This document shows, piece after piece, positions 3,231 to 31,910 of a DNA stretch of 43,691 nt. The stretch spans positions 1-43,691 of the forward strand of contig CANFSO010000007.1 in NCBI GenBank assembly GCA_947449895.1. The letters are read 5' to 3'. The notes under the pieces are model-generated. The model was given only the letters and a program-made list of their open reading frames with translations, ran no database searches and was not told the origin of the DNA. Made by a program: the position numbers and the translations under genes. The number at the start of each line of letters is the position of its first letter. Position 1 is the first letter of the stretch. The stretch is from Comamonadaceae bacterium (GTDB lineage: Bacteria; Pseudomonadota; Gammaproteobacteria; Burkholderiales; Burkholderiaceae_C).

Positions 3231-3254
3231 CCGTGCCGATCACGCCCGCCCGAT

Positions 3255-6940: not shown

Positions 6941-6969
6941 TTTTTGCTGTTTTAACTTGAGTTGTCAGT

Positions 6970-7986: not shown

Positions 7987-8009
7987 AGGGTTCTCGTCTT
8001 GGAGATGCA

Positions 8010-8711: not shown

Positions 8712-8726
8712 GTCAGCGGGCCACGC

Positions 8727-9952: not shown

Positions 9953-10017
9953 GAGGATCGATTGTCCGGCAAAGTCAGCCTCTTCGCTGATTGCCGGTTG
10001 TTCTGTGGCAAGTGTGC

Positions 10018-10542: not shown

Positions 10543-10600
10543 GGATGGTGATATTTTCGAAGCTTAGATGCGTATAAGCATCGTTTGAGGATAATTTTTC

Positions 10601-10631
10601 TTGACGACGCTCGGGGGTTTCTACTTATAAT
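10601..10631 (+). promoter_or_regulatory. Candidate sigma70 promoter of the atp operon
   Basis: TTGACG at 10601-10606 and a perfect TATAAT at 10626-10631 face the atp operon, 44 bases before the first ATG. The 19-base spacer is longer than the preferred 17, so strength is uncertain. It lies in the only sizeable gap upstream of atpI. Confidence 0.5.
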
Positions 10632-10674
10632 AAGCGGCTTTACTGAACACGCACTTGTAACCTTGGCGTAACCC

Positions 10675-11196: not shown

Positions 11197-11206
11197 AGAG
11201 TAAACA

Positions 11207-12091
11207 ATGTCTGAAGTAGAAATTCAACCGTCGGCCAGTGACTATATTGTTCACCACCTGACGCATTGGCAGAACAAGCCGCAAACCGAGATTGTTGACT
11301 TCACCGTTTTCAATATCGACTCGATCTTCTTTTCCATTTTGCTGGGCGTACTGGGCTCTTTCTTTTTGTGGATGGCTGCGCGCAAGGCGACATCTGGGGT
11401 TCCGGGGCGTTTTCAGGCCGCCGTTGAGATGCTGTTCGAAATGGTCGATGGCCAGGCCAAGTCTATTGTTCATAACGCGACCAGTCGCAAAATGGTCGCG
11501 CCCATGGCGATGACGGTTTTTGTCTGGATTTTCCTGCTCAATGCCATGGACTTGTTGCCGCTGGATTTGCTGCCGGTGATCTGGAGCGCGGTGTTCGGTG
11601 CGGCGGGGCTTGATCCGCATCACGCGTATCTGCGCGTTGTGCCGACTGCCGATCTTTCGGTGACCATGGGTCTGTCGGTCTCGGTGCTGTTTATCTGCTT
11701 GTTCTACAACATCAAAATCAAAGGCGTCGGTGGCTGGGCTCACGAGCTGGTTTCTGCGCCATTTGGCACCAGCAAGAATCCGATTTTTGCGGTGATTTTG
11801 GGTGTCATCAACATCGCTGAACAGCTGATCTCTTTTGTTGCTAAAACTGTTTCGCATGGTATGCGACTGTTTGGCAATATGTATGCTGGAGAGTTGGTGT
11901 TCATGCTCATCGCCTTGCTGGGCGGCTCTTGGGCCATGTCGGCCGAGCCGTCAAGTTTGATGCTGTTGTTGTTGCATATCGTTGCTGGATGGGCGTGGGC
12001 TGTATTCCACATCATCATCATCTTGCTGCAGGCGTTTGTGTTCATGATGTTGACCTTGGTCTACATCGGGCAAGCACACGACGCGCACTGA
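11207..12091 (+). CDS. atpB: ATP synthase F0 subunit a
   Basis: Subunit a of 294 residues forms the proton half-channels of the membrane F0 sector. The essential arginine is in GMRLFGNMYAGELVF. Earlier helices carry WIFLLNAMDLLPLDLLPV, the proteobacterial signature of this subunit. Five to six membrane segments are visible and the protein ends QAHDAH. The length is slightly above that of E. coli (271) because of a longer N-terminal arm and the VFGAAGLDPHHAYLRVVPTAD loop. It is preceded by atpI and followed by a T-rich leader and atpE. Confidence 0.96.
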   Translation: MSEVEIQPSASDYIVHHLTHWQNKPQTEIVDFTVFNIDSIFFSILLGVLGSFFLWMAARKATSGVPGRFQAAVEMLFEMVDGQAKSIVHNATSRKMVAPMAMTVFVWIFLLNAMDLLPLDLLPVIWSAVFGAAGLDPHHAYLRVVPTADLSVTMGLSVSVLFICLFYNIKIKGVGGWAHELVSAPFGTSKNPIFAVILGVINIAEQLISFVAKTVSHGMRLFGNMYAGELVFMLIALLGGSWAMSAEPSSLMLLLLHIVAGWAWAVFHIIIILLQAFVFMMLTLVYIGQAHDAH

Positions 12092-12423
<332 letters not shown>

Positions 12424-12459
12424 GCCTAGCCTGTCAACCCCGGTCTAGGGAGATCAACT

Positions 12460-12930
12460 GTGAACATTAATGGAACACTGATAGCACAAGCTATCGTCTT
12501 CGCATTGCTGGTCCTGTTCACGATGAAATTCGTGTGGCCGCCATTGGCGGCTGCATTGGACGAACGTGCCAGCAAGATCGCTGACGGCCTGGCTGCTGCC
12601 GACAAAGCCAAATCTGAACTCTCCGTAGCCAACAAGCGCGTAGAAGAAGAGTTGGCCAAGTCGCGCAACGAGTCAGCTGTGCGTCTGGCAGAAGCCGAGC
12701 GACGCGCTCACGCCATGATTGAAGAAGCCAAGGGCAAAGCAACCGTAGAAGGCGCGAAAATTATCGCCGCTGCGCAAGCTGAAGCTGAGCAGCAAACCGT
12801 CAAGGCCCGTGAAGTCCTGCGTGAGCAGGTCGCTGTGCTGGCGGTCAAGGGTGCCGAACAGATCCTGCGCAAGGAAGTCAATGCCAGCGTGCATGCTGAC
12901 TTGCTCGGTCGACTGAAAACTGAGCTGTAA
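12460..12930 (+). CDS. atpF: ATP synthase F0 subunit b
   Basis: Subunit b of 156 residues forms the peripheral stalk. A single N-terminal membrane helix ([20 protein letters not shown]) is followed by a long charged helix rich in Ala, Glu and Lys that dimerises and reaches subunit delta. The start codon is GTG at 12460, preceded by TAGGGAGA. Length equals that of E. coli subunit b. The atpH start follows after 2 bases, so translation is coupled. Confidence 0.95.
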
Positions 12931-12932
12931 AC

Positions 12933-13463
12933 ATGGCAGAACTCGCCACTATTGCCCGCCCCTACGCTGAAGCGCTTTACAAAGCCTCTGGTGCCGAGTT
13001 GGCTGCGACTGCTGTCTGGCTCGACGAGCTGGCTGTGATCGCGGTCGATGACCAGTTGCTGCAGTTCGCTGACAGCCCCAAGGTCACGGTTGCCCAGACT
13101 TTTGACGTGATCGTTGGCGTGGTCAAGACTGCTTTGCCTGAAAAGGCCAAGAACTTCATGCGCACCGTTCTCGACAACGGTCGGCTCAGTGTCTTGCCTG
13201 AAATTGCGAGCCAGTTCCGTGCCTTGAAAAATGCACAAACTGGTTCATCTGACGCAGTGGTTTACAGCGCTTTTGCTCTGGATGCTGCGGCACTGGCTGA
13301 CTTAGCAGTCACGCTTGAAAAGCGTTTCGCACGCAAACTCAATGTTCTGCTCGAAGTTGAGCCGGCATTGATTGGTGGCGTGCGCGTCGTGGTGGGTGAC
13401 GAGGTGCTTGACACCTCCGTCAAAGCCCGTTTGGAACAAATGAAAGTGGCGCTGGTCGCCTGA
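12933..13463 (+). CDS. atpH: ATP synthase F1 subunit delta
   Basis: Delta subunit of 176 residues links the peripheral stalk to the top of F1. Family features are the [14 protein letters not shown] start, the [21 protein letters not shown] segment in the middle and the C-terminal [24 protein letters not shown] signature. It starts 2 bases after the atpF stop and ends 46 bases before atpA. Confidence 0.95.
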
Positions 13464-13509
13464 GCGTTTGCTCCGGTCCAGCCAACAACCTAGAAAGAAG
13501 GAAAGAGTC

Positions 13510-15063
13510 ATGAAACTCAATCCAGCAGAGATTTCTGAGCAGATCAAGAGCCGCATCGAAGGTCTTGGCGCCAGCAGCGACATTCGCAATCAGGGCACCG
13601 TGGTGTCTGTTGCTGACGGTATCGTTCGTATCCACGGCCTGTCCGATGTGATGCAGGGCGAGATGCTTGAATTCCCCGCCACTGCCGATGGCACGCCGAC
13701 ATACGGCTTGGCATTGAACCTCGAGCGCGACTCTGTGGGTTCTGTGGTGTTGGGTGAGTTCGAACACATTGCCGAAGGCGACACAGTTAAATGCACCGGT
13801 CGTATTCTGGAAGTTCCGGTCGGTCCTGAGTTGCTTGGCCGCGTGGTCAACGCACTGGGTCAACCGATTGACGGCAAAGGCCCGATCAATGCCAAGCTGA
13901 CCGACGTGATTGAAAAGGTGGCACCTGGCGTCATCGCCCGTAAATCGGTCGACCAGCCATTGCAGACCGGTCTCAAGTCGATTGACTCGATGGTGCCGAT
14001 TGGCCGCGGTCAACGCGAACTGATCATTGGTGACCGCCAGACTGGTAAAACAGCTGTTGCGATTGATGCCATCATCAACCAAAAGGGCCAAAACGTCCCT
14101 TGTATTTACGTTGCCATTGGTCAAAAAGCATCTTCCATCAAGAACGTTGTGCGCTCACTCGAGCAAGCTGGCGCGATGGAATACACGATTGTGGTGGCGG
14201 CTTCCGCTGCTGAATCAGCCGCTATGCAATACGTCAGCGCTTACTCAGGCTGCACGATGGGCGAGTACTTCCGCGATCGCGGTCAAGACGCGCTGATCGT
14301 GTATGACGATTTGTCCAAGCAAGCCGTGGCTTACCGTCAAGTGTCCTTGTTGCTGCGTCGTCCACCAGGCCGCGAAGCTTACCCTGGGGATGTGTTTTAT
14401 CTCCACAGCCGCTTGCTCGAACGCGCAGCTCGTGTGAATGAAAAGTACGTTGAAGACTTCACCAAAGGCGAAGTCAAAGGCAAGACTGGTTCACTGACCG
14501 CACTGCCGATCATCGAAACGCAAGCCGGCGACGTCTCTGCTTTCGTGCCAACTAACGTGATTTCGATCACTGACGGCCAGATCTTCTTGGAAACCAGCCT
14601 GTTCAATGCCGGTATTCGCCCCGCTATCAACGCCGGTATCTCGGTGTCGCGCGTCGGTGGTGCTGCGCAGACCAAGCTGATCAAGAACCTGTCTGGCGGT
14701 ATCCGTACCGACTTGGCTCAGTACCGTGAACTCGCAGCTTTTGCGCAGTTCGCCTCTGACCTTGATGAAGCCACCCGCAAACAGCTCGATCGCGGTGCCC
14801 GCGTGACCGAACTGCTCAAGCAGGCGCAGTACTCACCACAGTCGATCTCTATCATGGCTGCCACACTGTTCGCAGTGAACAAAGGGTTCATGGACGACAT
14901 CGAAGTCAAGCAAGTTTTGGCTTTTGAAGCCGGTCTGCACAGCTATCTCAAAGACAAGCATGCGGTCTTGATGAGCAAGCTTGAGACAGCCAAGGCCATG
15001 GACAAAGATGCTGAGGCCGAAATGATGGCCGCAGCCACTGCGTTCAAGAAATCGTTTGCCTGA
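13510..15063 (+). CDS. atpA: ATP synthase F1 subunit alpha
   Basis: Alpha subunit of 517 residues carries the non-catalytic nucleotide sites of F1. The P-loop GDRQTGKTA starts at about residue 174. The conserved block [20 protein letters not shown] and the signature [17 protein letters not shown] are present. The frame is open to 13468, but the ATG at 13510 (MKLNPAEIS) is the family start and has AGAAAGAAGGAAAGAG purines just upstream. The mature length matches E. coli AtpA (513). Confidence 0.97.
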
Positions 15064-15118
15064 TTCATACCTGAATAGATAAAAAGCCAAAAGCTTTCAA
15101 AAACATTTAGGAATACAT

Positions 15119-15979
15119 ATGGCAGCAGGCAAGGAAATACGCGGCAAGATCAAATCGGTGGAAAACACCCGGAAGATCACCAAGGCCATGGAGATGGTGG
15201 CCGCTTCCAAGATGCGCAAGGCGCAGGAGCGCATGCGGGCAGCACGTCCGTACAGCGAAAAAATTCGCAATATTGCGGCTAACCTGAGTCATGCGAACCC
15301 CGAGTACACGCATGCGTTCATGCAGACCAACGAGTCCAAGGTGGTCGGCTTCATCGTCGTCTCCACGGACAAGGGTCTGTGCGGCGGCATGAACACCAAC
15401 GTGCTGCGGGCGGTCACCAGCAAGCTGAAAGACGCTCAAGCAGCGGGTCAAACGGCGCAAGCTGTGGCCATCGGCAACAAAGGCCTGAGTTTTCTGAACC
15501 GGGTTGGCGCTCAAGTGGTGTCGCATGCGACCCACCTGGGTGACAAGCCGCATCTGGAAAAACTCATTGGTCCGGTCAAGGTGATGCTCGACGCTTACAG
15601 CAAGGGCGAGATCAATGCGGTGTATCTTTGCTACACCAAGTTCATCAACACCATGCGGCAAGAGCCAGTGATTGAGCAGCTGCTGCCTTTGGCGACACTT
15701 GAAGTCACCAAAGGCGAGCACAGCTGGGACTACATCTACGAGCCAGATGCACAGAGCGTCATTGACGACCTGCTGGTTCGTTATGTTGAAGCGCTGGTGT
15801 TCCAAGCTGTGGCGGAAAATATGGCGTCCGAGCAATCGGCTCGCATGGTGGCCATGAAGGCCGCGACCGATAACGCAGGTAGCGTGATTGGCGAACTCAA
15901 GCTGATTTACAACAAGACGCGTCAAGCGGCGATCACGAAAGAACTTTCGGAAATCGTCTCGGGCGCCGCAGCTGTCTAG
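15119..15979 (+). CDS. atpG: ATP synthase F1 subunit gamma
   Basis: Gamma subunit of 286 residues is the rotating central shaft. The N-terminal coiled helix ([20 protein letters not shown]) and the C-terminal helix with [15 protein letters not shown] and the [18 protein letters not shown] signature are both present. The middle Rossmann-like part contains [15 protein letters not shown]. It is preceded by an A/T-rich gap of 55 bases with AGGA near the start. Confidence 0.96.
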
Positions 15980-20670: not shown

Positions 20671-21669
20671 ATGAACTACTGCGCACCATGGTGGTTGCCC
20701 GGAGGTAACCTGCAGACCATTTGGGCCGCTTTGCACGGTCTGCGCTACCTTGGTGGGAAACCACAATTTAGACGCGAGCGCTGGTCCACGCCAGACCAAG
20801 ATTTTGTCGATGTCGATTGGCTGCTAGACAGTTCCAGTGCCGATGCGAAGTCGCAACCGCTCCTGGTCGTATTCCATGGTCTTGAGGGCTCTTCATCGAG
20901 CCACTACGCAGAAGCTTTTGCAGATGTCGCCAGCAGCCTCGGTTGGGCTTGTGCCGTGCCGCATTTTCGCGGTTGTTCAGGCGAGATAAATTTGGCGCCA
21001 CGGGCCTACCACTCTGGCGACTTTGCCGAAATCGACTGGATACTGCGACGCTTCAAGGCGGTGCACGCGGGGCCGCTGCTGGCCGTTGGTATTTCGCTTG
21101 GTGGGAGCGCGCTCATGCGCTGGGCAGGCGAGCTTGAAAACGCGGCAGTCGATGTGGTGAGCGCCATCACCTCGGTCTCATCGCCGCTTGACCTGACTGC
21201 CAGCGGGAAAGCCATCAGCGAAGGCTTCAACCGGCAGACTTACACGCGCATGTTTCTCGGCACGATGGTGCCCAAGGCCTTGCAAAAATTGGCACAACAC
21301 CCGCATCTTTTTAACCGTGAAGCAATGCTGGCTGTCCGCGACCTTTACGCTTTTGACAACATCTTCACCGCGCCGCTGCACGGCTTCAAAGACACCGTAG
21401 ATTACTGGCAACGCGCTTCGGCCAAACCGCATATGCAAAGCATTGTGGTTCCTACATTGGCACTCAACGCTCTCAACGATCCGTTTGTTCCTGCCGTGAG
21501 CCTGCCTACTGTGCGCGACGTCAGCGCTAGGGTCACGCTTTGGCAACCTGGACAAGGCGGCCATTCGGGCTTCCCTGTCAACACTGGCCGTGGATGGGCG
21601 AACGCCCATGTTCGCGGAATGCCGATGGCCGTCTGCGAATTTCTTGCGCAGCACTTACCATCCAAATGA
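20671..21669 (+). CDS. yheT: YheT-family alpha/beta hydrolase
   Basis: Alpha/beta hydrolase of 332 residues in the YheT/EMB8 family. Visible are the N-terminal WWLPGGNLQTIWAAL signature, the oxyanion region VVFHGLEGSSSSHYA, the nucleophile elbow GISLGGSAL, the acid region ALNALNDPFVP and the catalytic histidine in GQGGHSGFP. The physiological ester substrate is not established. The gene is sandwiched between an NTF2-like and an unknown gene, all on the plus strand with gaps of 3-15 bases, which suggests an operon. Confidence 0.9.
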   Translation: MNYCAPWWLPGGNLQTIWAALHGLRYLGGKPQFRRERWSTPDQDFVDVDWLLDSSSADAKSQPLLVVFHGLEGSSSSHYAEAFADVASSLGWACAVPHFRGCSGEINLAPRAYHSGDFAEIDWILRRFKAVHAGPLLAVGISLGGSALMRWAGELENAAVDVVSAITSVSSPLDLTASGKAISEGFNRQTYTRMFLGTMVPKALQKLAQHPHLFNREAMLAVRDLYAFDNIFTAPLHGFKDTVDYWQRASAKPHMQSIVVPTLALNALNDPFVPAVSLPTVRDVSARVTLWQPGQGGHSGFPVNTGRGWANAHVRGMPMAVCEFLAQHLPSK

Positions 21670-21684
21670 GAGGTGTTAAAAATC

Positions 21685-22248
21685 ATGGACGACATCGTTA
21701 CAGCGGCGATAGCCAAATGGCCGAATGTGCCCAACTGCTTCGGATGGTTGGGGTTGGATGCGCGCGGCAACTGGTACATGCGAGACGACCGGGCTCAGGC
21801 GGCTGGGCCATTTGCCGGTGGCAGTTTACTGAGCAAAGGCTCTCTTCTCCAACACGAGAAGTTGATTGACTTTATCCAGCGCAACTACGAGGCCGACGCT
21901 GAAGGTCAGTGGTTCTTTCAAAACGGGCCCCAGCGTGTGTATGTCGAACTCGAAGCCACACCGCTGGTTTGTCGTGTATCGCCCGATTTTTCGGTCTGCT
22001 CCCACACCGGAGAGCTGGCCCGCGTGCAGCGCTGCATGATGGATCAATATGGCCGGCTTTACTTAGAAACAGGAATCGGTTTTGGCTTGGTACACACACA
22101 AGACATGACGCACGCAGCCGAGGCTGTGGAGTGCGGCCTGTGGGTGCCTGAAGCTGTGACGTCAGCCGATTTACCTAAACGATTTGGCTATGTCCGCAGT
22201 CCGTCTAAGCGTCATTCACCTGCCGGAAATGAAAATGCCGGTCATTGA
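21685..22248 (+). CDS. Conserved protein of unknown function next to yheT
   Basis: Protein of 187 residues. I recognise the pattern as a Burkholderiales protein regularly encoded after YheT-type hydrolases, but cannot give a function. It has no signal peptide or membrane segment. The N-terminal part, VPNCFGWLGLDARGNWYMRD, is rich in aromatic residues. The middle has FIQRNYEADAEGQWFFQNGPQRVYVELE. Four cysteines occur, including SVCSHTGE and QRCMMDQYG. The ATG at 21685 is preceded by GAGAGGTG. A GTG at 21673 would add four residues. The stop lies inside the loop of the terminator hairpin that follows. Confidence 0.8.
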   Translation: MDDIVTAAIAKWPNVPNCFGWLGLDARGNWYMRDDRAQAAGPFAGGSLLSKGSLLQHEKLIDFIQRNYEADAEGQWFFQNGPQRVYVELEATPLVCRVSPDFSVCSHTGELARVQRCMMDQYGRLYLETGIGFGLVHTQDMTHAAEAVECGLWVPEAVTSADLPKRFGYVRSPSKRHSPAGNENAGH

Positions 22249-22257
22249 CCGGCATTT
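22233..22257. terminator. Bidirectional terminator between convergent genes
   Basis: A perfect 10-base inverted repeat (AAATGCCGGT / ACCGGCATTT) with a five-base loop lies between the stops of the convergent genes ending at 22248 and 22275. The arms carry A and T runs at their outer ends, so it can work on both strands. Confidence 0.75.
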
Positions 22258-22274
22258 CTAGAGCGAAAAGAACC

Positions 22275-22823
22275 TTACTTGGTGGCTGCCATTGGATCTG
22301 ACGGTGCAGCTGCAGCAGGCGCTGCAGGTTCAACAAACTTGCCCCCAGCTGCAGCGGTCATGTGAACCACTGCGCGACCGATTTCGATGTCGCTGAAATC
22401 GCCGCCGCCCTGCGGTCCCATAGCGTTCTTGCCTTTGAGTGCTGAGTTCCAAAGGGATTCAAAACCGGTCTTGATCCGTGGTGCCCAAGCGGCAACGTCG
22501 CCGAACTTAGGTGCACCCGCTGCACCAGAGGCGTGGCAGGCAACGCACTGGGCTGCATAGACCTCAGCCCCAGCTTTGAGCGGACGGTTCGCGTCACGGA
22601 TTTCGACAGAGCCGATTTTTTGGATCCGCTGGGCAACGGATTTCTCCATATTCCCCGCACCCATCGCTGGCTTAGGAGCCGCTGTCACGTAATAAACCAA
22701 ACCAATGATCGCGAAGATCGGAATCACGAAAGAGAAAAACGCCATCAGCAAAAACTGCTTCGGTGTTTTGACTGGACCGGTGTGCTCTTCTTCGTGAGCC
22801 GAGTTGTTGTCGTGTGCGCTCAT
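22275..22823 (-). CDS. Membrane-anchored cytochrome c5-type protein
   Basis: Class I c-type cytochrome of 182 residues. Residues 24-46 form a single membrane anchor, and the periplasmic domain binds one haem through CVACH (Cys93, Cys96, His97). The likely Met axial ligand is in GKNAMGPQGGG. A Pro/Ala-rich tail follows the domain. It would carry electrons to a terminal oxidase or reductase. The frame is open to 22859, but ATG 22823 has GAGGA immediately upstream and gives the normal hydrophilic start MSAHDNNSAHEEEHTG, typical of Burkholderiales c5 proteins. It is the last gene before the tRNA. Confidence 0.92.
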   Translation of the reverse strand: MSAHDNNSAHEEEHTGPVKTPKQFLLMAFFSFVIPIFAIIGLVYYVTAAPKPAMGAGNMEKSVAQRIQKIGSVEIRDANRPLKAGAEVYAAQCVACHASGAAGAPKFGDVAAWAPRIKTGFESLWNSALKGKNAMGPQGGGDFSDIEIGRAVVHMTAAAGGKFVEPAAPAAAAPSDPMAATK

Positions 22824-22922
22824 GGCGTCCTCAAAAAAAAACGGGATTTCGGGGGGCAACCAGGGTCAAGCCCGGCAGCCCGTGATTATAGCCGTCAGCT
22901 CGGATTGATTTGCAGATCTTCA

Positions 22923-22941
22923 AGTCGCTTGCGGAGCGACT
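22923..22941. repeat. Perfect 7-base hairpin upstream of tRNA-Arg
   Basis: AGTCGCT at 22923-22929 and AGCGACT at 22935-22941 flank a five-base loop (TGCGG). No T run follows, so it is not a standard terminator. It may be a boundary or processing element before the tRNA. Confidence 0.4.
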
Positions 22942-22983
22942 GTTAGAATCCATCGCTGATGTCGTGAGGCATTAATCAGCGTT

Positions 22984-23059
22984 GCGGCTGTAGCTCAGTG
23001 GATAGAGTATTGGCCTCCGAAGCCAAGGGTCGTGGGTTCGATCCCCGCCAGCCGCACCA
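22984..23059 (+). tRNA. tRNA-Arg (anticodon CCG)
   Basis: A complete 76-base tRNA with the CCA encoded. The acceptor arm is GCGGCTG pairing with CAGCCGC, the D arm GCTC/GAGT, and the anticodon stem TTGGC/GCCAA with loop CTCCGAA, giving anticodon CCG (arginine). The T arm is GTGGG-TTCGATC-CCCGC. Its last 20 bases are the left attachment site of the integrative element downstream. The element restores the full 3' end, so the tRNA stays functional. Confidence 0.96.
23040..23059 (+). repeat. attL: 3' end of tRNA-Arg
   Basis: GATCCCCGCCAGCCGCACCA, the T-arm half, acceptor arm and CCA of the tRNA, matches the copy at 28666-28685 without mismatch. Confidence 0.9.
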
Positions 23060-23135
23060 ATCAACGTTGGAACCTACGTAAGCTGTTGTTTTGTATGGTT
23101 CCCAACGTAAATCAAGCACCTAGTTCTTCCCGTCT

Positions 23136-23154
23136 GGATACATCTGCGGATACA
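23136..23154 (+). repeat. Left-end GGATACA repeats (candidate integrase arm sites)
   Basis: GGATACA occurs at 23136-23142 and again at 23148-23154, 12 bases apart on the plus strand, 77-95 bases inside attL and upstream of the preferred integrase start. Related repeats with the same 12-base step occur close to attR. Confidence 0.55.
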
Positions 23155-23205
23155 TTGACCGAAAAACACGGCCAATTACTCCGTATTTTCAAGGCGGAGT
23201 TCGTC

Positions 23206-24957
23206 ATGGCAAAGCCACCGGGCTACAGTAAAGAAGGCAATCGCATACGGTTTCAACGCCGCATCCCAGAAGATGTTCGCCATGCTTTCAATGGCAAGGA
23301 CTGGATACGCTTCTCACTAGATTTTCCCACCGAGCGAGAGGCCAAGCGCAGCGCCCTTGCGTGGTATGTGATCTATGAGGAAGAGTTCGCGGAGATACGT
23401 TACGAGACCGAATTCGGTAAGCGTTTGGCACCCGATACGGTCACTAAAAAGCCACTGAGCGAATACACGCCAGCGGAGATGCAAGCCCTTATCAAGCCTG
23501 TATCCGAGGGACTTAACCGGAGCCAGCACACCGCGATTGCCACAGGTACAGCGTCATTCAATGAATTGGCTGCGAACCATGCAAAGCTTGATACCGCAGT
23601 ACGGGATGTTTTGCGTGGTCAAGGCTCGGAGTATTTGGGTGTCCTCATACAGTTGTTCTTGATGTCCCGTGGCATTCGCTACGACACTAAGGACCCGAGC
23701 TTTAAGAGGTTCCTGTTTGAGTGCGCCCGTGATCACCGGACCCATGTCCTCATCCCGAACGCCCGCCGACTTGATGGTGAAGACGTAGAGCCTCCGCCGT
23801 TGCCTTCGATGGGCGTTGGGTTGCTTATACCGATGCCAGATGGCTTGACCTTGGGGGCTGTGATTGCGCGATACATCGAGACCCTCCCGGAGAACCATTA
23901 CAAGCGCAAGCTGGCGTTGTGCCTAACCTTGTTGCGAGAGGTTGTTGGGGCATCGCTCCTTGTCAAAGACCTGAAGCAAACGCACATTCGAGACTTCTTG
24001 TTGACGGTGTGCGAATTGCCAAGCGATTGGGGCAAACGATTCAAGGAGAAGCGTGTACCCCTTGCAGAGTTGCTGGAAGAGGCAGACAGCGAAGGACTTT
24101 CGGAGACGACCTACAAGGACAGCTACAAGGCCACGCTGACGAAGTTTCTCAATCGCGCCTTGCGAGATTATGGCGATCAAGGTTTTCCCGTGCTGACTGC
24201 GGACTATGAGTACACGGGTAGCCAACAAGCCGCTCGAGACAAGCAGCGGCACCTTGAAGAGCTTGAACTCGTGCGGTTGTTTGAAGGGGCTGAGTTTGCT
24301 GCAATAGCTGTAGACCCAGCGCAGGAGCACCGTTACTGGCTTCCGATCATTGGCCTTTACACGGGTGCACGCCCTCGCGAGATCTGTCAGTTGAATCCTC
24401 AATGTGATTGGGGTGTGGTGGGCGAAGTGTGGTTCTTGACCTTTGACGAAAACACACCCGCTGGTGATGGCGTAATCAAGAGCATCAAGACTGGCGAAAA
24501 GCGGTTTGTGCCATTGCACCCAGAACTTGTCCGCTTGGGGCTTCCTGAATATCTTGCACGTCTGCGCGATACGGGTGCCGACCGACTATTTCCCAGCTAT
24601 CGCGTCAAGGGCGGCAATCCATACTTGGTTGCTGGCGCTGAGTTTTCGGAGCTGCTGCGAACAGTGGGCCTGTACGACAGCCAGACCAAGGGCGCTAAGG
24701 TCACTGGCATGTATGTTTTTCGCAAGACCTTCGCCACTTACGGTGATGAGCAGGACATCAATGTGGCACCCTTTGTGGGCCATCGAAACACAGGTAAAAC
24801 TATCACGGAGAAGCACTACATCACCCGGCCCAAAGAAATGCCGTGGCTGTTTGAACGGTTTGCGGCACTGGACTTCTCTGTGAAAATTCCGATTAGAGCT
24901 TGGTTGCATTCACCGCTGGTCGAGTGTTCCGGTGCCTATGCAATTACACCCCTATAA
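23206..24957 (+). CDS. int: Tyrosine-family integrase of the tRNA-Arg element
   Basis: Site-specific recombinase of 583 residues. The N-terminal 60 residues (NRIRFQRRIPEDVRHAF) look like the short arm-binding module of large integrases. The catalytic domain begins around residue 370. Active-site residues are Arg389 (GARPREICQL), a lysine in the TGEKRFVPLHPEL hairpin, Arg506 (YVFRKTFAT), His526 (VGHRN) and the nucleophile Tyr538 (TEKHYITRP). The usual histidine three residues before the second arginine is Tyr here. I chose ATG 23206 because GGCGGAG sits six bases before it. The frame opens earlier, at a GTG inside the tRNA and an ATG at 23095, but those would run through the putative arm repeats. 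Confidence 0.9.
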   Translation: MAKPPGYSKEGNRIRFQRRIPEDVRHAFNGKDWIRFSLDFPTEREAKRSALAWYVIYEEEFAEIRYETEFGKRLAPDTVTKKPLSEYTPAEMQALIKPVSEGLNRSQHTAIATGTASFNELAANHAKLDTAVRDVLRGQGSEYLGVLIQLFLMSRGIRYDTKDPSFKRFLFECARDHRTHVLIPNARRLDGEDVEPPPLPSMGVGLLIPMPDGLTLGAVIARYIETLPENHYKRKLALCLTLLREVVGASLLVKDLKQTHIRDFLLTVCELPSDWGKRFKEKRVPLAELLEEADSEGLSETTYKDSYKATLTKFLNRALRDYGDQGFPVLTADYEYTGSQQAARDKQRHLEELELVRLFEGAEFAAIAVDPAQEHRYWLPIIGLYTGARPREICQLNPQCDWGVVGEVWFLTFDENTPAGDGVIKSIKTGEKRFVPLHPELVRLGLPEYLARLRDTGADRLFPSYRVKGGNPYLVAGAEFSELLRTVGLYDSQTKGAKVTGMYVFRKTFATYGDEQDINVAPFVGHRNTGKTITEKHYITRPKEMPWLFERFAALDFSVKIPIRAWLHSPLVECSGAYAITPL

Positions 24958-25001
24958 GGTTGTATATGGTGATCGCTTGGGGCAGTGACTCACTTCGTAG
25001 A

Positions 25002-25868
25002 TCAGGAGTCGCTGGCCACATCATCACTATCTGCCTCCGCATCCTCATCCTCCTCTCCCCACCAACCGATTAGCCGGTCTGGCAAGCGGCTGTCATAGAT
25101 TTCTAAAGCTCTGGCAAAGACTTCTGGGTACTTGGCACCTTCGGAACCAAGACTTCGCCGTAGAGCTAACGCCATCTCTTGAGCCTTTTTCTCATTAGCT
25201 TCATCTCGGTCAAAGTCAGCAGCATCTCGACCTTCGGCCAGTCGCTTAGCGTCAGCCCAGCTGAGATCTCGAAAGTCTGCTTGAGGTGGTGCATCGAAAT
25301 CATTGGCCTCATCATTCGCTTTTGATTCCAATTGGATGAAGACCTTACGCATGGTGGCAACCGTGGACTCAGAGACGCTCGAAGCCTTGGCAACCTCGAC
25401 CTTCGACATATCAGCCATCGCCACGAGGTGCCATGCGGTATTAGATTTCTCAGTGCGACTCATGGGCAACTTATCTTTGGTGTTCGCCTCCGCTGCTGCC
25501 CCCATAGCCTGATTGAGTGTGCCGGTAAAGACCTCCACCGGCACCTTGTGCGTGATGCCAACCTCGGCCTGCAAATAAGCCTCATACCGGTGGTGACCAT
25601 CGACACAGGCCCACCCTTTGCCATCCCACCAGATCGTGATGGGATCGAGTGATTTGTTCTTTCGCTTTTTGATCGCAGCGGCCAAGACCATCACATGGCT
25701 TTTGCTTGATACGCCTCCAAAGCTCCGATGTTGAAAGACCTTGGGCCACAGCTTAATTTCAGACAAGCGCAGTGACGTTGGTTGCGTGGCCGGAAGCTTT
25801 CCCTTGATGACTTGCTTGGTTAATGTGGCGTAGTCCGCAGCGAGTGAATTACCGTGCTTCAGTTTCAA
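25002..25868 (-). CDS. ParB-like nuclease-domain protein with HTH
   Basis: Protein of 288 residues. Residues about 32-115 fit the ParB/Srx-type N-terminal domain: a start like LRLSEIKLWPKVFQHR and the nucleotide-binding box VDGHHRYEAY (residues 89-98). Residues about 156-178 (KVEVAKASSVSESTVATMRK) look like a helix-turn-helix. The C-terminus is very acidic (EEDEDAEADSDD). In plasmid and phage biology such proteins partition DNA or act as CTPase/nuclease regulators. On a small element it could be a regulator or nuclease, but this is not known. Its ATG overlaps the stop of the upstream gene by 4 bases, so the two are translated together. Confidence 0.8.
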   Translation of the reverse strand: MKLKHGNSLAADYATLTKQVIKGKLPATQPTSLRLSEIKLWPKVFQHRSFGGVSSKSHVMVLAAAIKKRKNKSLDPITIWWDGKGWACVDGHHRYEAYLQAEVGITHKVPVEVFTGTLNQAMGAAAEANTKDKLPMSRTEKSNTAWHLVAMADMSKVEVAKASSVSESTVATMRKVFIQLESKANDEANDFDAPPQADFRDLSWADAKRLAEGRDAADFDRDEANEKKAQEMALALRRSLGSEGAKYPEVFARALEIYDSRLPDRLIGWWGEEDEDAEADSDDVASDS

Positions 25869-26530
25869 GACATTTCCTTCAATGCATCATTCAATTGCTG
25901 CCGCTCGGCCTTCAGGCCCTCGACATCTTTCTTCTCCAACTCAGCCAGCCGCATCCCAGCAACCCCAAATGCCACCTTCAGCGACTCCGCAAGGCAATCG
26001 AGCACCCGAGGTGGCGTGTCCCTGTAGGTGCGCTTGATGCGGCCTTCAGTGGGGCTGTAATGGCTGCTTGAGTTGGCTTCTGCCAGTCCACGGACACGCC
26101 TTGCGAGTTGAAAGTTAAATGCCTTGTCCGACATGAACCGGTGCGGACTCTGCTCCCACAGCAGGAACATGGCGAGGGCCGTATCGATCACGACATCCAC
26201 CGTCACAGTGTTTCGCAACGTGCCCAGCTGTTCAGCCGTTTGGCGCTCGTAGGAGATCGCTGGTGACCCATTGGCATAGGCATCCAGCGTAGCCTTGGCA
26301 TGGGCAGTCAGAGCCTCCCAGCGGGCACGTAGCAGCTCCCATGTGGGATTGGCTGGGTTCTTGGCTCGTCTTGCTGCGATGCGATCTTGAAAGGGTTTCA
26401 ACTCCAGGACTGTGATGCCTTTTTGCAGGGCATGCCCGTGGCGTCGAAGGGTTCTCTTGTGAGACTCACAGAGAGTGCTGTAACCAGCTACTGGCTCCGC
26501 ACAGTGAAGGGCGGCACATCGCTTGGTCAT
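25865..26530 (-). CDS. Unknown element-borne protein with N-terminal zinc-finger-like motif
   Basis: No family recognised; 221 residues. The first 30 residues have Cys5, Cys10, Cys21 and His24 (C-x4-C-x10-C-x2-H) followed by a basic stretch KRTLRRHGH, which suggests a zinc-binding, possibly nucleic-acid-binding head. The rest is mostly helical and charged, with a conserved-looking core DVVIDTALAMFLLWEQSPHR and a closing coiled-coil-like helix LAELEKKDVEGLKAERQQL. It is the first gene of a two-gene operon with the ParB-like protein (ATGA overlap). The pair probably acts together on DNA, which is inference only. Confidence 0.72.
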   Translation of the reverse strand: MTKRCAALHCAEPVAGYSTLCESHKRTLRRHGHALQKGITVLELKPFQDRIAARRAKNPANPTWELLRARWEALTAHAKATLDAYANGSPAISYERQTAEQLGTLRNTVTVDVVIDTALAMFLLWEQSPHRFMSDKAFNFQLARRVRGLAEANSSSHYSPTEGRIKRTYRDTPPRVLDCLAESLKVAFGVAGMRLAELEKKDVEGLKAERQQLNDALKEMS

Positions 26531-26711
26531 TGGTGCAATCGTTAATGTTGTCCACGACTATAGACGCAGGCGGGCAGGTAATTTGTTAGGAGGCTTGGAT
26601 GACTATGCCCACTCCATCCGATTGTGCGGATTCAGTGGTGTTTCGAGCCTGAAAATTTATGGGCTTTTGACCCTTCGCAATTTGATTTGACCGCTATCTC
26701 TGGTGTACCGT

Positions 26712-27509
26712 TCAGCCCGTCACAACTACGCAATTACGGCCTGCATTCTTGGCGGCGTAAAGTGCTTTGTCTGTTGCATCCAACACATCCTGAACTGTGA
26801 CGAGATTTATCTCCATGGCAGGAGCAAACAAGCCAATGCTGATAGTGACTTCAATTCGTTGGTTGCCAGCTACAAATTTGTGCTCGGCTACTGCCCTGCG
26901 AAAGCGTTCAGCAGCAGCACTTGCCGCTACCTGATCACTGTCTGGCAATACGACCAAGAACTCCTCGCCACCAATACGTCCAACAGTATCTATCTTACGG
27001 AATGAGCCGATTGCAATATCGGTTAAGCCTTGCAGCACGATATCACCTGCAGGGTGCCCATGCGTATCGTTCACCACCTTGAAATGGTCTAGGTCATACA
27101 TCAAGAAGGCGACTGGGCGCTTCGTCCTCATAGCGCGGTCAATTTCGTGGCGAACGGAGTCAAGTACGGAGCGCCTATTTGGAAGACCCGTCAGCTCGTC
27201 AGTATCAGACTTTGACTTGAGGCCGGTTAACAATTCAGTTAGGCCATAAACGCCCACAACCATCAGCACAGAGATGGCCAAGCCAAATAGCGCGTCCATC
27301 ATGCTGCTGACCTCTCCCACACTTATGTGGCGCCACAGAGGCACCATTCGGCGCTCCACCATCAAGACCAAAGCCAGCGCCACAATAAGCCAAGCCAAGC
27401 GGTAACGATCCTCAACCTTGCTAACCTGTACCAAGGCAATAAAAGCAGCCGTTGTTTGCAGTGCAACGGACAGCACGAAAATCACTGCTAATAGGGTAAA
27501 TTCATGCAT
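26712..27509 (-). CDS. Membrane GGDEF diguanylate cyclase
   Basis: Diguanylate cyclase of 265 residues that should make the second messenger c-di-GMP from two GTP. The N-terminal half has about four membrane segments (from LLAVIFVLSVALQTTAAFIA to ISVLMVVGVYGLTELL). The GGDEF domain follows, with DELTGLPNRRSVLD at its start, DHFKVVNDTHGHPAGD and the active-site loop GGEEF at residues 180-184. The RKID motif five residues before GGEEF is a product-inhibition site (RxxD). No EAL domain. The frame opens at a TTG at 27518, but I chose ATG 27509. Its presence as cargo on a tRNA element suggests the element can alter motility or biofilm behaviour of the host. Confidence 0.88.
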   Translation of the reverse strand: MHEFTLLAVIFVLSVALQTTAAFIALVQVSKVEDRYRLAWLIVALALVLMVERRMVPLWRHISVGEVSSMMDALFGLAISVLMVVGVYGLTELLTGLKSKSDTDELTGLPNRRSVLDSVRHEIDRAMRTKRPVAFLMYDLDHFKVVNDTHGHPAGDIVLQGLTDIAIGSFRKIDTVGRIGGEEFLVVLPDSDQVAASAAAERFRRAVAEHKFVAGNQRIEVTISIGLFAPAMEINLVTVQDVLDATDKALYAAKNAGRNCVVVTG

Positions 27510-27607
27510 GAGGTTCAACAGGACGATGAAACACCAACTTTATATTTTTGAACGTTCCATGCTGTTTTGAACATGCAAGCAAACTTTCAACATGTAAGTG
27601 CAACCCA

Positions 27608-28222
27608 TCACTCCTCCGCCACCACTCGCTGAACCACCGATACCCCGCACTGAAGCTGCTTGGCGATCTTGAGCATGCCCATGCCCTGCGCCCTGAGTTC
27701 TCGAATCTGGGCTTCCGTCTCCGGTGATGTTGCTGGCCTGCCAATAGCCTTGCCAGACTTGGTTCCATGCTTCTTGGCACGGGCAAGACCAGACTTCACC
27801 CGCTCCTGAATCATGCCCCGCTCGAACTCAGCAAAGACACCCATCATTCCGAACAGCGCCTTACCGGCTGGTGTGGTGGTGTTGATGCCTTGCTGGTGCA
27901 GGTACAGATCAACGCCCATCGAGTGCAGCTCCTGAAGCAGTCCAACGAGATCAATGAGAGACCGCCCTAGACGATCCACTGACCACGCGGCAACGATATC
28001 GAAGTCCTTGCGTGATACGCCTTTGAGTAAGGAATCCAGCTTGGGCCGATCCTTGCGACTCTTGGCTCCACTGATACCGTGATCGACAAACTCACCGACC
28101 ACCTCCCAGCCCATGCGTTTGGCGGCATCACGCAGTTCAGTGAGTTGGTTCTCCGTGCTTTGCTTGTCCGTACTGACTCGGGCATAAAGGGCAACTCGTT
28201 GGGGCTTGGTGATCTTGGACAT
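27608..28222 (-). CDS. Serine recombinase (resolvase/invertase family)
   Basis: Small serine recombinase of 204 residues. The catalytic N-terminal domain begins VALYARVSTDKQ with nucleophile Ser17, followed by the expected arginines in SVDRLGRSL and the FAEFERGMIQERVKSGLARAK helix leading to the C-terminal DNA-binding helix-turn-helix (MLKIAKQLQCGVSVVQRVV). Length is that of Tn3-type resolvases and Hin/Gin-like invertases. No transposase is nearby, so it may invert or resolve DNA within the element or be a leftover. ATG 28222 is chosen over an extension to 28252. Confidence 0.9.
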   Translation of the reverse strand: MSKITKPQRVALYARVSTDKQSTENQLTELRDAAKRMGWEVVGEFVDHGISGAKSRKDRPKLDSLLKGVSRKDFDIVAAWSVDRLGRSLIDLVGLLQELHSMGVDLYLHQQGINTTTPAGKALFGMMGVFAEFERGMIQERVKSGLARAKKHGTKSGKAIGRPATSPETEAQIRELRAQGMGMLKIAKQLQCGVSVVQRVVAEE

Positions 28223-28665
28223 TGGGTGCTTTATTGTTGAAGACCCAATCATGAACTCAAGTCATACGGAAAGCAAGTGGTTTACGTATATCATTTTCGA
28301 TGACATGCTCCAGAGTCAAAGCAAGCACTGAAACGGGAGGAGGTTTCCGTATGGGTTGAACAGCGGCCTTGCACTGCATCAAGCAGGTGCAGCCAGATAG
28401 CTTGTTGGATGACTGCACCACAGACCCTCCCTCGATCATTCAAGGAAAGCGATGGGGGCCATCGGGGGTAATTGCCGCGTCTAATTCCTCGAGGTAGGGC
28501 CTGACAACTTTGCGCCAAAATAATGGCGACCACTGCAGGGATCTGACGCAACCCAGCAAAATAGCGGTAGGATGTAACTCAGTAGCCGGATACAAATCTG
28601 GGTACAAGGTGGCGGGATACACCGCTAAGTGATTGATTTATATGGTGCAAGGCCACGGGAACTAA
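28223..28665. other. Right end of the element without a convincing gene
   Basis: This 440-base stretch between the serine recombinase and attR holds only short frames without ribosome binding sites or recognisable domains. One minus-strand frame (28440-28622) reads YPATLYPDLYPATEL because of the GGATACA-type DNA repeats, not because of a protein repeat. Confidence 0.6.
28570..28621 (+). repeat. Right-end GGATACA-type repeats (candidate integrase arm sites)
   Basis: GGATACA at 28588-28594, GGGTACA at 28600-28606 (12 bases later) and GGATACA at 28615-28621, with a weaker GGATGTA at 28570-28576. They lie 45-95 bases inside attR, on the same strand as the pair near attL. Confidence 0.55.
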
Positions 28666-28685
28666 GATCCCCGCCAGCCGCACCA
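28666..28685 (+). repeat. attR of the tRNA-Arg element
   Basis: Exact 20-base copy of the tRNA-Arg 3' end (GATCCCCGCCAGCCGCACCA). The preceding bases do not match the tRNA, so this is an attachment site and not a second tRNA. Confidence 0.9.
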
Positions 28686-28761
28686 GACACCATGACCGAC
28701 AAAAGGGAGCACTTCGAGTATTGCCCACGCGGCAATCCGTACTCTTGCACCCAACAGCTGG

Positions 28762-29352
28762 TCAAGCCAACAAACGTTGCCTTATTTCCAGCGGGTCCAA
28801 CACCTGAAGCGGCAAAGTGCCGCCACCCGGTACGCCCACTTGAGTAGCGTTCAGCAGCATCGACACCATGACGTAGGTGCCAGACAACACTGTCAGATCA
28901 ATCACCGCCTGTTCGCCCATCTTGGTCACTGCTTCTTGCCAAAGCGCATCTTGCACCCGGTGATTCAGGCTCAATTGAACGCAGTAGTCATAGACAAGGC
29001 GTTCGTCGACTTGCATTGCGGTGGGCCTGCGACATACGCGCAAGTCTTCTATCACGGCATCCGACAAGCCCGCCTTGCGAGCAATGGCGGCATGCGCCCA
29101 CCACTCGTACTGGGCATTGGAAATACGCGCTTGAATCAAAATGGCGAACTCATTCAAACGCTTGTTGACGGATGTCTTGAAGCGCAAATAATCCAGAAAG
29201 TCAAAGCAACGTCGCGCCATGTCGGGGCTGCGCAGGAGTGCACTGTAGGGCCCTCCCAATCCAGCGCTGGAAACCTTCAAAATATCGTCTGCCAGCGGTT
29301 TGACCGTATCGGGCAAGGCGTCGTAAGAGATGGGGGAAAGTCGTTCATTCAC
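28762..29352 (-). CDS. Carboxymuconolactone-decarboxylase-family protein
   Basis: All-helical protein of the CMD/AhpD-like superfamily, about 196 residues. Visible are GPYSALLRSPDMARR near the start, LNEFAILIQARISNAQYEWWAHAAIARKAGLS (Glu-Trp-x-x-His pattern of the family) and VIDLTVLSGTYVMVSMLLNA. The CxxC pair of true AhpD peroxidases is absent, so a decarboxylase-like or other role is more likely. The frame runs to a TTG at 29385 with no ribosome site. GTG 29352 is an alternative start that I use. The gene is just outside attR and divergent from the Bug-family gene, a pairing seen in catabolic clusters of this order. Confidence 0.83.
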   Translation of the reverse strand: MNERLSPISYDALPDTVKPLADDILKVSSAGLGGPYSALLRSPDMARRCFDFLDYLRFKTSVNKRLNEFAILIQARISNAQYEWWAHAAIARKAGLSDAVIEDLRVCRRPTAMQVDERLVYDYCVQLSLNHRVQDALWQEAVTKMGEQAVIDLTVLSGTYVMVSMLLNATQVGVPGGGTLPLQVLDPLEIRQRLLA

Positions 29353-29474
29353 GCCTGGATAGTAGCGCGATTGGGCAGATGTCAAAGGGTGTGAGGCATC
29401 CAGCCTGAGGAATTCACTCTTTACACCTGAGCGTTAAGCTCGGAAGATCGCAGCATCATGAAGGAGAGACGGGT

Positions 29475-30443
29475 ATGAAGCGACGACACCTGCTGCAAGC
29501 GGCCTCAGCTGCTTTGGTTCTGCCGGGCATTGCGCGGGCGCAGTCGTATCCCGTCAAGCCGATACGCTACATCGTCCCCGTGGCAGCCGGAGGCGGAAAC
29601 GACATGATCGCGCGGGTCGTGACTGAGCGTTGGGGACGGCTGCTTGGCCAGAGCTTTTTGGTTGACAACCAAAGTGGCGGCGGCGGCGTCGTTGCATGCC
29701 AAGTCACAGCGCGCGCAGGCCCCGATGGCTATACCCTTATGCAGGGCTACGTGGCGACCCACGGCACCACGCCGGCGACACGTCGCGTGAGCTACGACGC
29801 AATCAAAGATTTCACGCCCATCGGGATGATCGGCGCGACGCCAAATGTGCTCGCCATCAACGACAACGTGCCGGCTAAAAACGTCAACGAATTCATCGAA
29901 TACATCAAACGAAATCCTGGCAAGGTGAATTACGGATCAGCTGGTGCAGGGTCACTGACCCACATGACGATGGAACTCTTCAAGCAGGAGACTGGCGCAC
30001 TGATGCTGCACATCCCCTACCGCGGCATTGCGCCGGCCATCAATGACTTGCTGGGCGGGCAGACGCAGGCGATGTTCCCCGGGCTAGCGGCGGCCTTGCC
30101 GCACTTACGCTCTGGTCGTATGCGCGCGCTGGCCGTTACCGGTAAGCAACGCAGCCCCCAACTCAAGGACATCCCCACCATGGAGGAGATCGGCTTCAAG
30201 GGCTTCGATGCGATGCAGTGGTATGGCTCGGTCGGTCCTGCGGGCATGTCTGCGGCGGTGGTGCAGCGCCTCAACGAAGCGCAAGTGGCGGTTTTGAAAT
30301 TACCAGACTTGGCCGACAAACTCGCGGGTGAAGCGGTGGAACCTTGGCCGATGACGCCGGAACAATTTGGCCTGTACATCCGTTCGGAAGTCGAGCGCTG
30401 GACGGCGCTCGCCAAGGCGCGCGGGATTCGTCTGGAGGAATGA
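29475..30443 (+). CDS. Bug-family tripartite tricarboxylate transporter substrate-binding protein
   Basis: Periplasmic binding protein of 322 residues of the Bug/TctC family, which is greatly expanded in Burkholderiales. Signal peptide residues 1-23 with a twin arginine (MKRRHLLQAASAALVLPG) and cleavage after IARA. The mature protein begins with the family signature YPVKPIRYIVPVAAGGGNDMIARVV and has NYGSAGAGSLTHMTMELF in the middle. The ligand is probably a carboxylate but cannot be named. AGGAGA precedes the ATG. No TctA/TctB membrane genes are adjacent, which is common for orphan Bug proteins. Confidence 0.92.
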   Translation: MKRRHLLQAASAALVLPGIARAQSYPVKPIRYIVPVAAGGGNDMIARVVTERWGRLLGQSFLVDNQSGGGGVVACQVTARAGPDGYTLMQGYVATHGTTPATRRVSYDAIKDFTPIGMIGATPNVLAINDNVPAKNVNEFIEYIKRNPGKVNYGSAGAGSLTHMTMELFKQETGALMLHIPYRGIAPAINDLLGGQTQAMFPGLAAALPHLRSGRMRALAVTGKQRSPQLKDIPTMEEIGFKGFDAMQWYGSVGPAGMSAAVVQRLNEAQVAVLKLPDLADKLAGEAVEPWPMTPEQFGLYIRSEVERWTALAKARGIRLEE

Positions 30444-30542
30444 TCGCCACCACGGTGGCGTGGCCTCGGTTTGACGGACGGTCGTATAAAAATGCGTGAA
30501 CGACAATGAGTTGGTAGTGACTCAAAAAAGACAGACGTACGC

Positions 30543-31910
30543 ATGGTCATAGAAACTGAATCTATCTCAACAGCACCACCTGCAGCGTTTCCGCCGCAGG
30601 TGAGTTTTGGGCAGGCCTTTTGGTTCTGGCTGAAGCTGGGTTTCATCAGTTTTGGCGGCCCAGCTGGTCAGATCGCCATCATGCATGAAGAGCTTGTTGT
30701 GCGTCGTCGTTGGATCTCTGAAAAACGCTTCCTGCATGCTCTGAATTACTGCATGGTGTTGCCCGGCCCGGAAGCGCAGCAACTGGCAATTTACATCGGC
30801 TGGCTGCTACACAAAACTCGCGGTGGCATTGTGGCGGGCACGCTGTTTGTGTTGCCATCCCTGTTTATTCTGATTGCGTTTTCGTGGGTCTACATCGCCT
30901 TTGGTGAAGTGCCATTGATTGCTGGCATTTTCTACGGCATCAAGCCGGCGGTGACCGCCATCGTGGTGCATGCAGCGCATCGCATTGGCTCCCGCGCCTT
31001 GAAGAATAATGTTTTGTGGGCGATTGCGGCTGCCAGCTTCTTAGCGATTTTTGCGCTCAATGTGCCTTTCCCCTTCATCGTTGCGGGTGCTGCTGCAATG
31101 GGCTTTTTGGGCGGACGTCTGGCGCCTGAAATTTTTAAAGTGGGTGGCGGCCACGGCAGCGTGCACAAGTCTTTCGGTGCCGCTTTGATTGATGACCAAA
31201 CGCCGACGCCCGCACATGCGCTGTTCAAATGGCGGCGATTGATTCAATTAGCGGCTGTTGGTGCATTTCTCTGGGCCGTGCCGATGGGTTTGTTGGTCGT
31301 TCAATTCGGCTGGGACCACACCTTCACCCAAATGAGCTGGTTTTTCACCAAGGCTGCGCTGCTGACATTTGGCGGTGCCTACGCGGTGCTGCCTTATGTT
31401 TACCAAGGTGCGGTTGACCAGTTTGGTTGGGCTACAGCCACGCAAATGATCGATGGCTTGGCGCTGGGTGAAACCACCCCTGGTCCCTTGATCATGGTGG
31501 TGGCGTTTGTTGGCTTTATCGGCGGCTACGCCAATGAAGTGCTGGGTCCGCAAAGCCTGTTTCTGGCGGGTGCCGTGGCGGCCAGCTTGGTGACTTGGTT
31601 TACTTTTCTGCCGTCCTTCATGTTCATTCTGGCCGGTGGCCCGTTGGTTGAGAGCACGCACAACGACCTGAAGTTCACCGCGCCCTTGACCGCTATCACG
31701 GCGGCTGTCGTCGGCGTGATCTTGAACCTGGCGATGTTCTTTGGTTACCACGTGCTGTGGCCGCAAGGGTTTGGCGGCGCGTTTGATGTGCCCTCGGCCG
31801 TTATCGCCCTGGCAGCAACGGTGGCGCTTTTCAAATACAAACGCAACGTGATTCATGTCATTGGCGTCTGCGGCCTGCTGGGCGTTGCGCTCCAGTGGCT
31901 CCATATTTAA
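30543..31910 (+). CDS. chrA: Chromate transporter (ChrA, two-domain form)
   Basis: Chromate ion efflux protein of 455 residues with two CHR domains. The first has the signatures FWLKLGFISFGGPAGQIAIM and YCMVLPGPEAQQLAIYIGWL. The second has FFTKAALLTFGGAYAVLPYV and GLALGETTPGPLIMVVAFVG. About 10-12 membrane segments are seen. It probably exports chromate, although the family also contains members with unclear anions. There is no chrB or chrF regulator next to it. A 37-codon ORF follows its stop by 27 bases. Confidence 0.92.
   Translation: MVIETESISTAPPAAFPPQVSFGQAFWFWLKLGFISFGGPAGQIAIMHEELVVRRRWISEKRFLHALNYCMVLPGPEAQQLAIYIGWLLHKTRGGIVAGTLFVLPSLFILIAFSWVYIAFGEVPLIAGIFYGIKPAVTAIVVHAAHRIGSRALKNNVLWAIAAASFLAIFALNVPFPFIVAGAAAMGFLGGRLAPEIFKVGGGHGSVHKSFGAALIDDQTPTPAHALFKWRRLIQLAAVGAFLWAVPMGLLVVQFGWDHTFTQMSWFFTKAALLTFGGAYAVLPYVYQGAVDQFGWATATQMIDGLALGETTPGPLIMVVAFVGFIGGYANEVLGPQSLFLAGAVAASLVTWFTFLPSFMFILAGGPLVESTHNDLKFTAPLTAITAAVVGVILNLAMFFGYHVLWPQGFGGAFDVPSAVIALAATVALFKYKRNVIHVIGVCGLLGVALQWLHI

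Follow-up and report, generated by a model that had tools for sequence, protein, structure and literature searches.

A small genomic island in tRNA-Arg(CCG) of a Comamonadaceae genome shares a resolvase and zinc-finger-like backbone with other islands

Structure of the element at tRNA-Arg(CCG)

The window analyzed here is the whole 43,691-nucleotide stretch of contig CANFSO010000007.1 (contig 7) of the Comamonadaceae bacterium assembly GCA_947449895.1. Within it, a 5.6 kb element is bounded on the left by a tRNA-Arg gene (anticodon CCG) with an intact 3' end and on the right by a second copy of the last 20 bases of that gene, GATCCCCGCCAGCCGCACCA. Five genes lie between the two att cores, encoding a tyrosine integrase with a DUF6538 N-terminal domain, a ParB-like protein, a zinc-finger-like protein with a conserved Cys/His pattern (working name zf), a diguanylate cyclase-like GGDEF protein and a small serine recombinase of the resolvase/invertase type (Table 1). 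At 53.3%, the G+C content of the element is below that of the 10 kb flanks (56.3% and 58.0%).

An earlier note, made from the DNA letters alone, had described an exact recurrence of the tRNA end, an integrase starting about 150 bases inside the left copy, and a set of five genes devoid of transfer, replication or capsid functions; all three observations held. With up to two mismatches permitted, GATCCCCGCCAGCCGCACCA occurs twice in the window, both times exactly, a number reached in 0 of 100 shuffles, and this pair is the sole exact same-strand repeat of at least 20 bp in the 43.7 kb scanned. When the DNA downstream of the tRNA was resampled 200 times (first order), exact matches to the tRNA reached 12 bp at most. 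On the basis of the shuffles and resamplings, a chance origin of the 20 bp repeat was rejected. The integrase ATG at 23206 lies 146 bases past the tRNA end, on the inner side of the left repeat. Two features of Islander-type islands, an exact copy of the tRNA 3' end displaced to the far side and an integrase gene inside, are found here.

No relaxase, secretion, replication-initiation or capsid family appeared among the family matches of the five element proteins (Pfam, PHROG, NCBIfam), and Pfam and PHROG scans recognized no conjugation machinery among the five genes. Two more small open reading frames near 28291–28622 matched no Pfam family above its cut-off. The integrase carries the motifs TGARPRE, VFRKTF, VGHR and HYITR, as read from its sequence and from an alignment with its relative in the congener G709. 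Taken together, the element is very probably a small non-conjugative genomic island, site-specific for the 3' end of tRNA-Arg(CCG), which the integrase would be able to excise and whose multimers the serine recombinase would resolve.

The zf and ParB-like genes appear to form an operon, the zf stop overlapping the ParB-like start by 4 bp. In the zf family alignment C5, C21 and H24 are invariant and C10 is nearly so; Pfam, PHROG and NCBIfam yielded no match for zf. The ParB-like protein has no Pfam or NCBIfam family above cut-off, and among solved structures neither protein found anything better than E 0.09.

Table 1. Features of the tRNA-Arg(CCG) element (positions in the window)
Feature	Position	Strand	Basis
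tRNA-Arg (anticodon CCG), integration target, 3' end intact	22984-23059	+	ARAGORN
attL core, 20 bp GATCCCCGCCAGCCGCACCA	23040-23059	+	exact repeat
Tyrosine integrase, 583 aa, DUF6538 N-terminal domain	23206-24957	+	PF20172 2.4e-7; phrog_1 8.2e-17
Site of ~20 bp AGGGGTGTAATTGCATAGGCA downstream of parB, overlapping integrase 3' end	24933-24953	-	similarity to L006, L061 sites
ParB-like protein, 288 aa, TTG start	25002-25868	-	phrog_1033 1.6e-12
zf protein, 221 aa	25865-26530	-	family alignment; Cys/His pattern
Cargo region between resolvase stop and zf upstream region	26599-27604		DNA homology breaks vs L006, L009
Diguanylate cyclase-like cargo gene (GGDEF)	26712-27518	-	PF00990 9.7e-41
Small serine recombinase (resolvase/invertase type), 214 aa	27608-28252	-	PF00239 1.9e-45
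res-like region	28257-28359	-	inverted half sites upstream of resolvase
attR core, 20 bp GATCCCCGCCAGCCGCACCA, displaced tRNA 3' end	28666-28685	+	exact repeat

Recurrence of the resolvase-zf backbone

A scan of the genome collection with zf returned five loci. A profile search found zf in 6 out of 399 genomes from the family (own genome included), 4 out of 87 from the genus and 1 out of 369 from the class; this last was the own genome, which was also the only one matched when 300 genomes from the order were searched with a single sequence. Among 72,556 plasmid records there was one match (Microvirga, 37%), and plasmid records held no relatives of the ParB-like protein. With zf as the only query, two scans of viral contigs and one of phage records yielded no confirmed relative.

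We compared 13 zf loci (the window, L004, L006–L010, L046–L050 and L061), leaving out the fragment L088. A serine resolvase gene or fragment lies nearby in 12 of them, the exception being L010, and a tyrosine integrase stands beside the backbone or a tRNA in nine (the window, L006, L007, L008, L047–L050 and L061), that of L006 being partial at a contig end. Five of these nine integrases are of the DUF6538 type by Pfam, and two further ones match those by BLAST. L010 has a tyrosine integrase 4.7 kb from its zf fragment; none was found in L004 or L009 with the window integrase as query, or in L046 with four queries. Exact tRNA-end repeats are present in 5 of the 13 loci, at tRNA-Arg (window, L061), tRNA-Ser (L007, 19 bp), tRNA-His (L008, 19 bp) and tRNA-Ala (L048, 20 bp). 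No such repeat was found in L006 and L046 (near tRNA-Asp), L047 (near tRNA-His) or L050 (near tRNA-Thr).

Next to zf, on its downstream side, comes a ParB-like gene in the window, L006, L008 and L061, and an SF2-type helicase gene in L007 and L046. Homologues of the window ParB-like protein are 87% (L006), 40% (L061), 34% (G709) and 26% (L008) identical. The res-zf-ParB genes run one way relative to the integrase in the window, G709 and L008, and the other way in L006, L007 and G757. The L007 element (2120–15580, Rhodoferax sp. U11-2br) is a 13.5 kb tRNA-Ser island in which zf adjoins the helicase gene; it carries defence-like genes (PD-T4-10_B, a TIR-like effector, HNH/PtuB-like and NERD), and L008 and L050 carry one each (PDC-M45A in L008; a DndB family protein in L050, 1163–2683). 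HsdM lies beside the backbone of L046, and L048 (7003–8508) has Rha/KilA-N phage-type regulators. Judged by this recurrence, the gene mixture is not random: resolvase and zf, in some cases with a ParB-like gene, recur across islands. The description of the gene content as an unusual mixture in the earlier note is therefore not supported, the GGDEF gene sitting where close relatives carry other genes.

Downstream of parB, a loose search, which returned other matches too, located sites like AGGGGTGTAATTGCATAGGCA in L006 (6019–6039) and L061 (10362–10382). The AGGGGTGTAATTGCATAGGCA site is a candidate binding site, on which zf and the ParB-like protein may act. L061 has such a site despite the modest identity of its ParB-like protein.

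Exchangeable cargo between resolvase and zf

The DNA of the window aligned with that of L006 at 89% over 24933–26598 and at 88% from 27605 to 28496 or slightly beyond, and with that of L009 at 90% over 26040–26581 and at 85–86% over 27623–27787. Homology is lost close to the stop codon of the resolvase gene and some 70 bp ahead of zf. In the window, the resolvase-zf interval is 1.0 kb long and holds the GGDEF gene; in L006 it is 2.2 kb long and encodes a MerR regulator and an MFS transporter, and in L009 it encodes an alpha/beta hydrolase and a histidine kinase that includes a receiver domain. On this alignment evidence, the GGDEF gene, whose product keeps the GGEEF motif intact and is hydrophobic in its N-terminal half, is exchangeable cargo on a conserved backbone. 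The slot is not universal, as the resolvase adjoins zf directly in L008, L050 and L061, and the arsenic genes of G757 are located between integrase and resolvase.

Decay is evident in L009, where zf is truncated and the resolvase gene is a fragment, and L010 retains only a zf fragment. At L009 6393–7103 an att core stands without a tRNA, one side continuing into DNA that resembles the left end of the G762 element, and the resolvase upstream motif is inverted relative to the resolvase fragment; by this arrangement, the segment is a scrambled remnant.

GGDEF genes whose products are 72–75% identical to the window cargo were found at L055 3585–4394, L056 207–1010, L058 5511–6311, L060 6828–7628 and L063 8451–9314. 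Four lie near a CMD gene, with a TctC-like gene in between (congeners G741, G754, G757 and G760), and one lies near tRNA-Asp (G759); none of the five has a zf/resolvase backbone beside it. A tree of six sequences joins the window copy to the G759 copy (support 0.964) and not to the other four. From a table of CMD identities, the G757 row (7 aa), read in a wrong frame, was left out. Given this pairing, local capture of a resident chromosomal GGDEF gene, in its simple form, is not supported.

The serine recombinase and its upstream region

The earlier note had spoken of a second recombinase. The protein is indeed a serine recombinase by its PF00239 match; its HTH_7 score falls just under the Pfam cut-off, and its closest matches among solved chains include Tn3/gamma-delta resolvases as well as DNA-invertases, the top two being DNA-invertases. 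Half sites TTTCCGTATG form an inverted pair at 28263–28272 (minus strand) and 28344–28353 (plus strand), upstream of the resolvase, and with one mismatch permitted no others occur in 22900–28800. Both half sites are found upstream of the resolvase in L006 and G762 as well, and one in L009, while alignment points to a similar arrangement in L048. Since each element has one set of half sites, resolution of dimers would fit better than inversion. The enzyme seems closer to a resolvase that has a res-like site of its own than to a second integrase.

The same tRNA locus in congeners

We searched the DNA of 21600–30500 in 87 genomes of the genus and, among the matches listed, inspected what follows the tRNA at 21 loci, the window included (421 bp to ~18 kb of downstream DNA). 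The tRNA 3' end is identical in 14 and variant in 7. Integrase queries matched three of the 21 (the window, G709 and G757), and a fourth, G762, has a resolvase start (95% identity over 39 amino acids) at most 422 bp from the tRNA. At this tRNA, G757 also has an element of such a kind, ~7.8 kb long and with an exact 25 bp repeat of its own; its integrase, resolvase, zf and ParB-like proteins are 34%, 31%, 45% and 40% identical to those of the window, and its cargo is ArsB plus an FMN reductase. In G709 an integrase 74% identical to that of the window follows the same tRNA, and then a ParB-like gene faces it, as in the window. Another island occupies the tRNA-Arg of G741 (L055 6382–15956), with a 58 bp exact repeat running 41 bp past the tRNA end, its own Arm-DNA-bind_3 type integrase and a Prim-Pol protein, and G760 has, as judged by eye, an integrase-like frame soon after the tRNA. 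These loci support tRNA-Arg(CCG) as a putative integration hotspot in congeners.

Discussion

Tyrosine integrases generally integrate and excise elements at a core sequence. Here, recombination by the DUF6538-type integrase at the 20 bp core (attP x attB) would keep the tRNA whole and place the displaced core at the far end; in reverse, it would set free a 5.6 kb circle. The serine recombinase would act on the single res-like site upstream of its own gene, most likely resolving circle dimers or cointegrates. The zf-ParB operon probably regulates or stabilizes the excised form, at a guess as a partition-like or recombination-directing factor, and transfer might occur by transformation, transduction or a helper. 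The earlier note's suggestion that the element needs a helper or induced excision is plausible.

Several observations weigh against the element being such an excisable island. The Phage_integrase score of its integrase is 11.8 bits, under the Pfam cut-off of 27.1 bits, and a Tyr occupies the first position of the HxxR motif, which is usually His; the G709 relative has the same substitution. The host genome is a fragmented metagenome-assembled genome of 2.7 Mb in 209 contigs, 78.5% complete. An empty site in related genomes, running from 23059 directly to 28686, had been proposed in the earlier note. The congener G761 counts partly in favour of integration at this tRNA: ChrA (92% to window 30543–31910) begins 1231 bp after the tRNA, with a single intervening open reading frame of no Pfam family, and the interval has no match to the backbone or integrase queries and no recombinase match. 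However, the CMD (28762–29385) and TctC (29475–30443) of the window were not found in that interval either, the DNA after the G761 tRNA is unlike that right of attR, and the base-perfect junction was not found in the congener loci.

The element might have arrived by integration and since become a fixed relic that can no longer excise. The C-terminus of the integrase, which differs from that of the G709 relative, and its 3' end, which runs into the AGGGGTGTAATTGCATAGGCA site, would suit such decay, as would the degraded relatives L009 and L010; but all five genes are open frames, the recombinases have their motifs and the two att cores match exactly, and we regard a relic as possible but unlikely. 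The block from resolvase to parB (~24933–28496) could alternatively be a transposon-like unit inserted beside different integrases. It recurs nearly unchanged (88–89% DNA identity outside the cargo) in L006, by a different integrase and in the opposite relative orientation, and an imperfect 12 bp inverted motif lies at 24940 (plus strand) and 28464 (minus strand). The same 12-mer is, however, also found at 26730 and at one end only in L006, and no target-site duplication was visible in the sequences inspected. Tn3-family transposons have a TnpA transposase and terminal inverted repeats of ~38 bp; no inverted repeat of that length was seen at the block ends, and neither Pfam nor PHROG gave a transposase match, leaving a transposon-like unit improbable.

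The compact size, the tRNA attachment and the anti-phage family matches of the sibling islands L007 and L008 would also suit a phage satellite for which a helper phage provides the packaging. Such an origin is quite improbable, as the five proteins gave no capsid, terminase, packaging or helper-control match and zf had no confirmed relative in viral contigs or phage records. We give still less credence to the serine recombinase being an invertase that turns the res-zf-ParB block around with respect to the integrase: the block does occur in both orientations and the best two solved-chain matches are DNA-invertases, but inversion needs two inverted sites, the half-site motif, with one mismatch permitted, occurs in the element only upstream of res, and the integrases differ too between the orientations.

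As a tRNA-targeted integrase island, the element is of a known kind and a fairly ordinary small genomic island. With the Islander/TIGER class it shares a tyrosine integrase by a tRNA gene, a 3' fragment displaced to the far end and variable cargo, and it differs in its recurrent backbone of resolvase and zf, in some islands with a ParB-like gene. The small serine recombinase, the inverted half sites directly upstream and the ParB-like neighbour recall Tn3-type resolvase/res and plasmid stability modules, yet no Tn3 transposase, ParA or replication initiator is among its family matches. The islands of G741 and, as judged by eye, G760 share its attachment gene; that of G741 differs in integrase type, Prim-Pol protein and the length of its repeat. 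Integrative and mobilizable elements (IMEs) are likewise small and lack mating machinery of their own, but no relaxase match was found here by Pfam, PHROG or NCBIfam, and no search for an origin of transfer (oriT) was made. A figure legend in PMC5704250 lists an oriT-only type of IME, and the element may be one. The earlier note had placed it among the smallest islands; its size is in fact ordinary, because TIGER/Islander excludes only islands below 2 kb, with sizes peaking at 10 and 40 kb (PMC12424338).

More speculatively, and with considerable doubt on our part, resolvase, zf and a partner (ParB-like or SF2-type helicase) could be the undescribed core of a family of integrative elements with a plasmid-like stage, found chiefly in the family to which the window belongs (its relatives bear the labels Comamonadaceae and Rhodoferax). 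On this view, zf would be the founder of a new family of DNA-binding proteins that control excision or maintenance, and regulators, pumps or defence genes would preferentially occupy the gap between resolvase and zf. The backbone is unnamed in the titles and abstract starts of the literature searched, and no papers on DUF6538 together with an integrase were found there, both being weak evidence as subscription papers lay mostly outside that search.

Together, the DUF6538 integrase, resolvase, zf and ParB-like protein make up a compact core by which such mobile elements can be named and sought. It is the mark of islands at several tRNA genes, whose contents include arsenic, efflux, cyclic di-GMP and anti-phage type genes. 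In the TIGER/Islander survey, 58% of islands were not readily categorized by gene content (PMC12424338), and a recognizable core of this kind would help to sort some of them.

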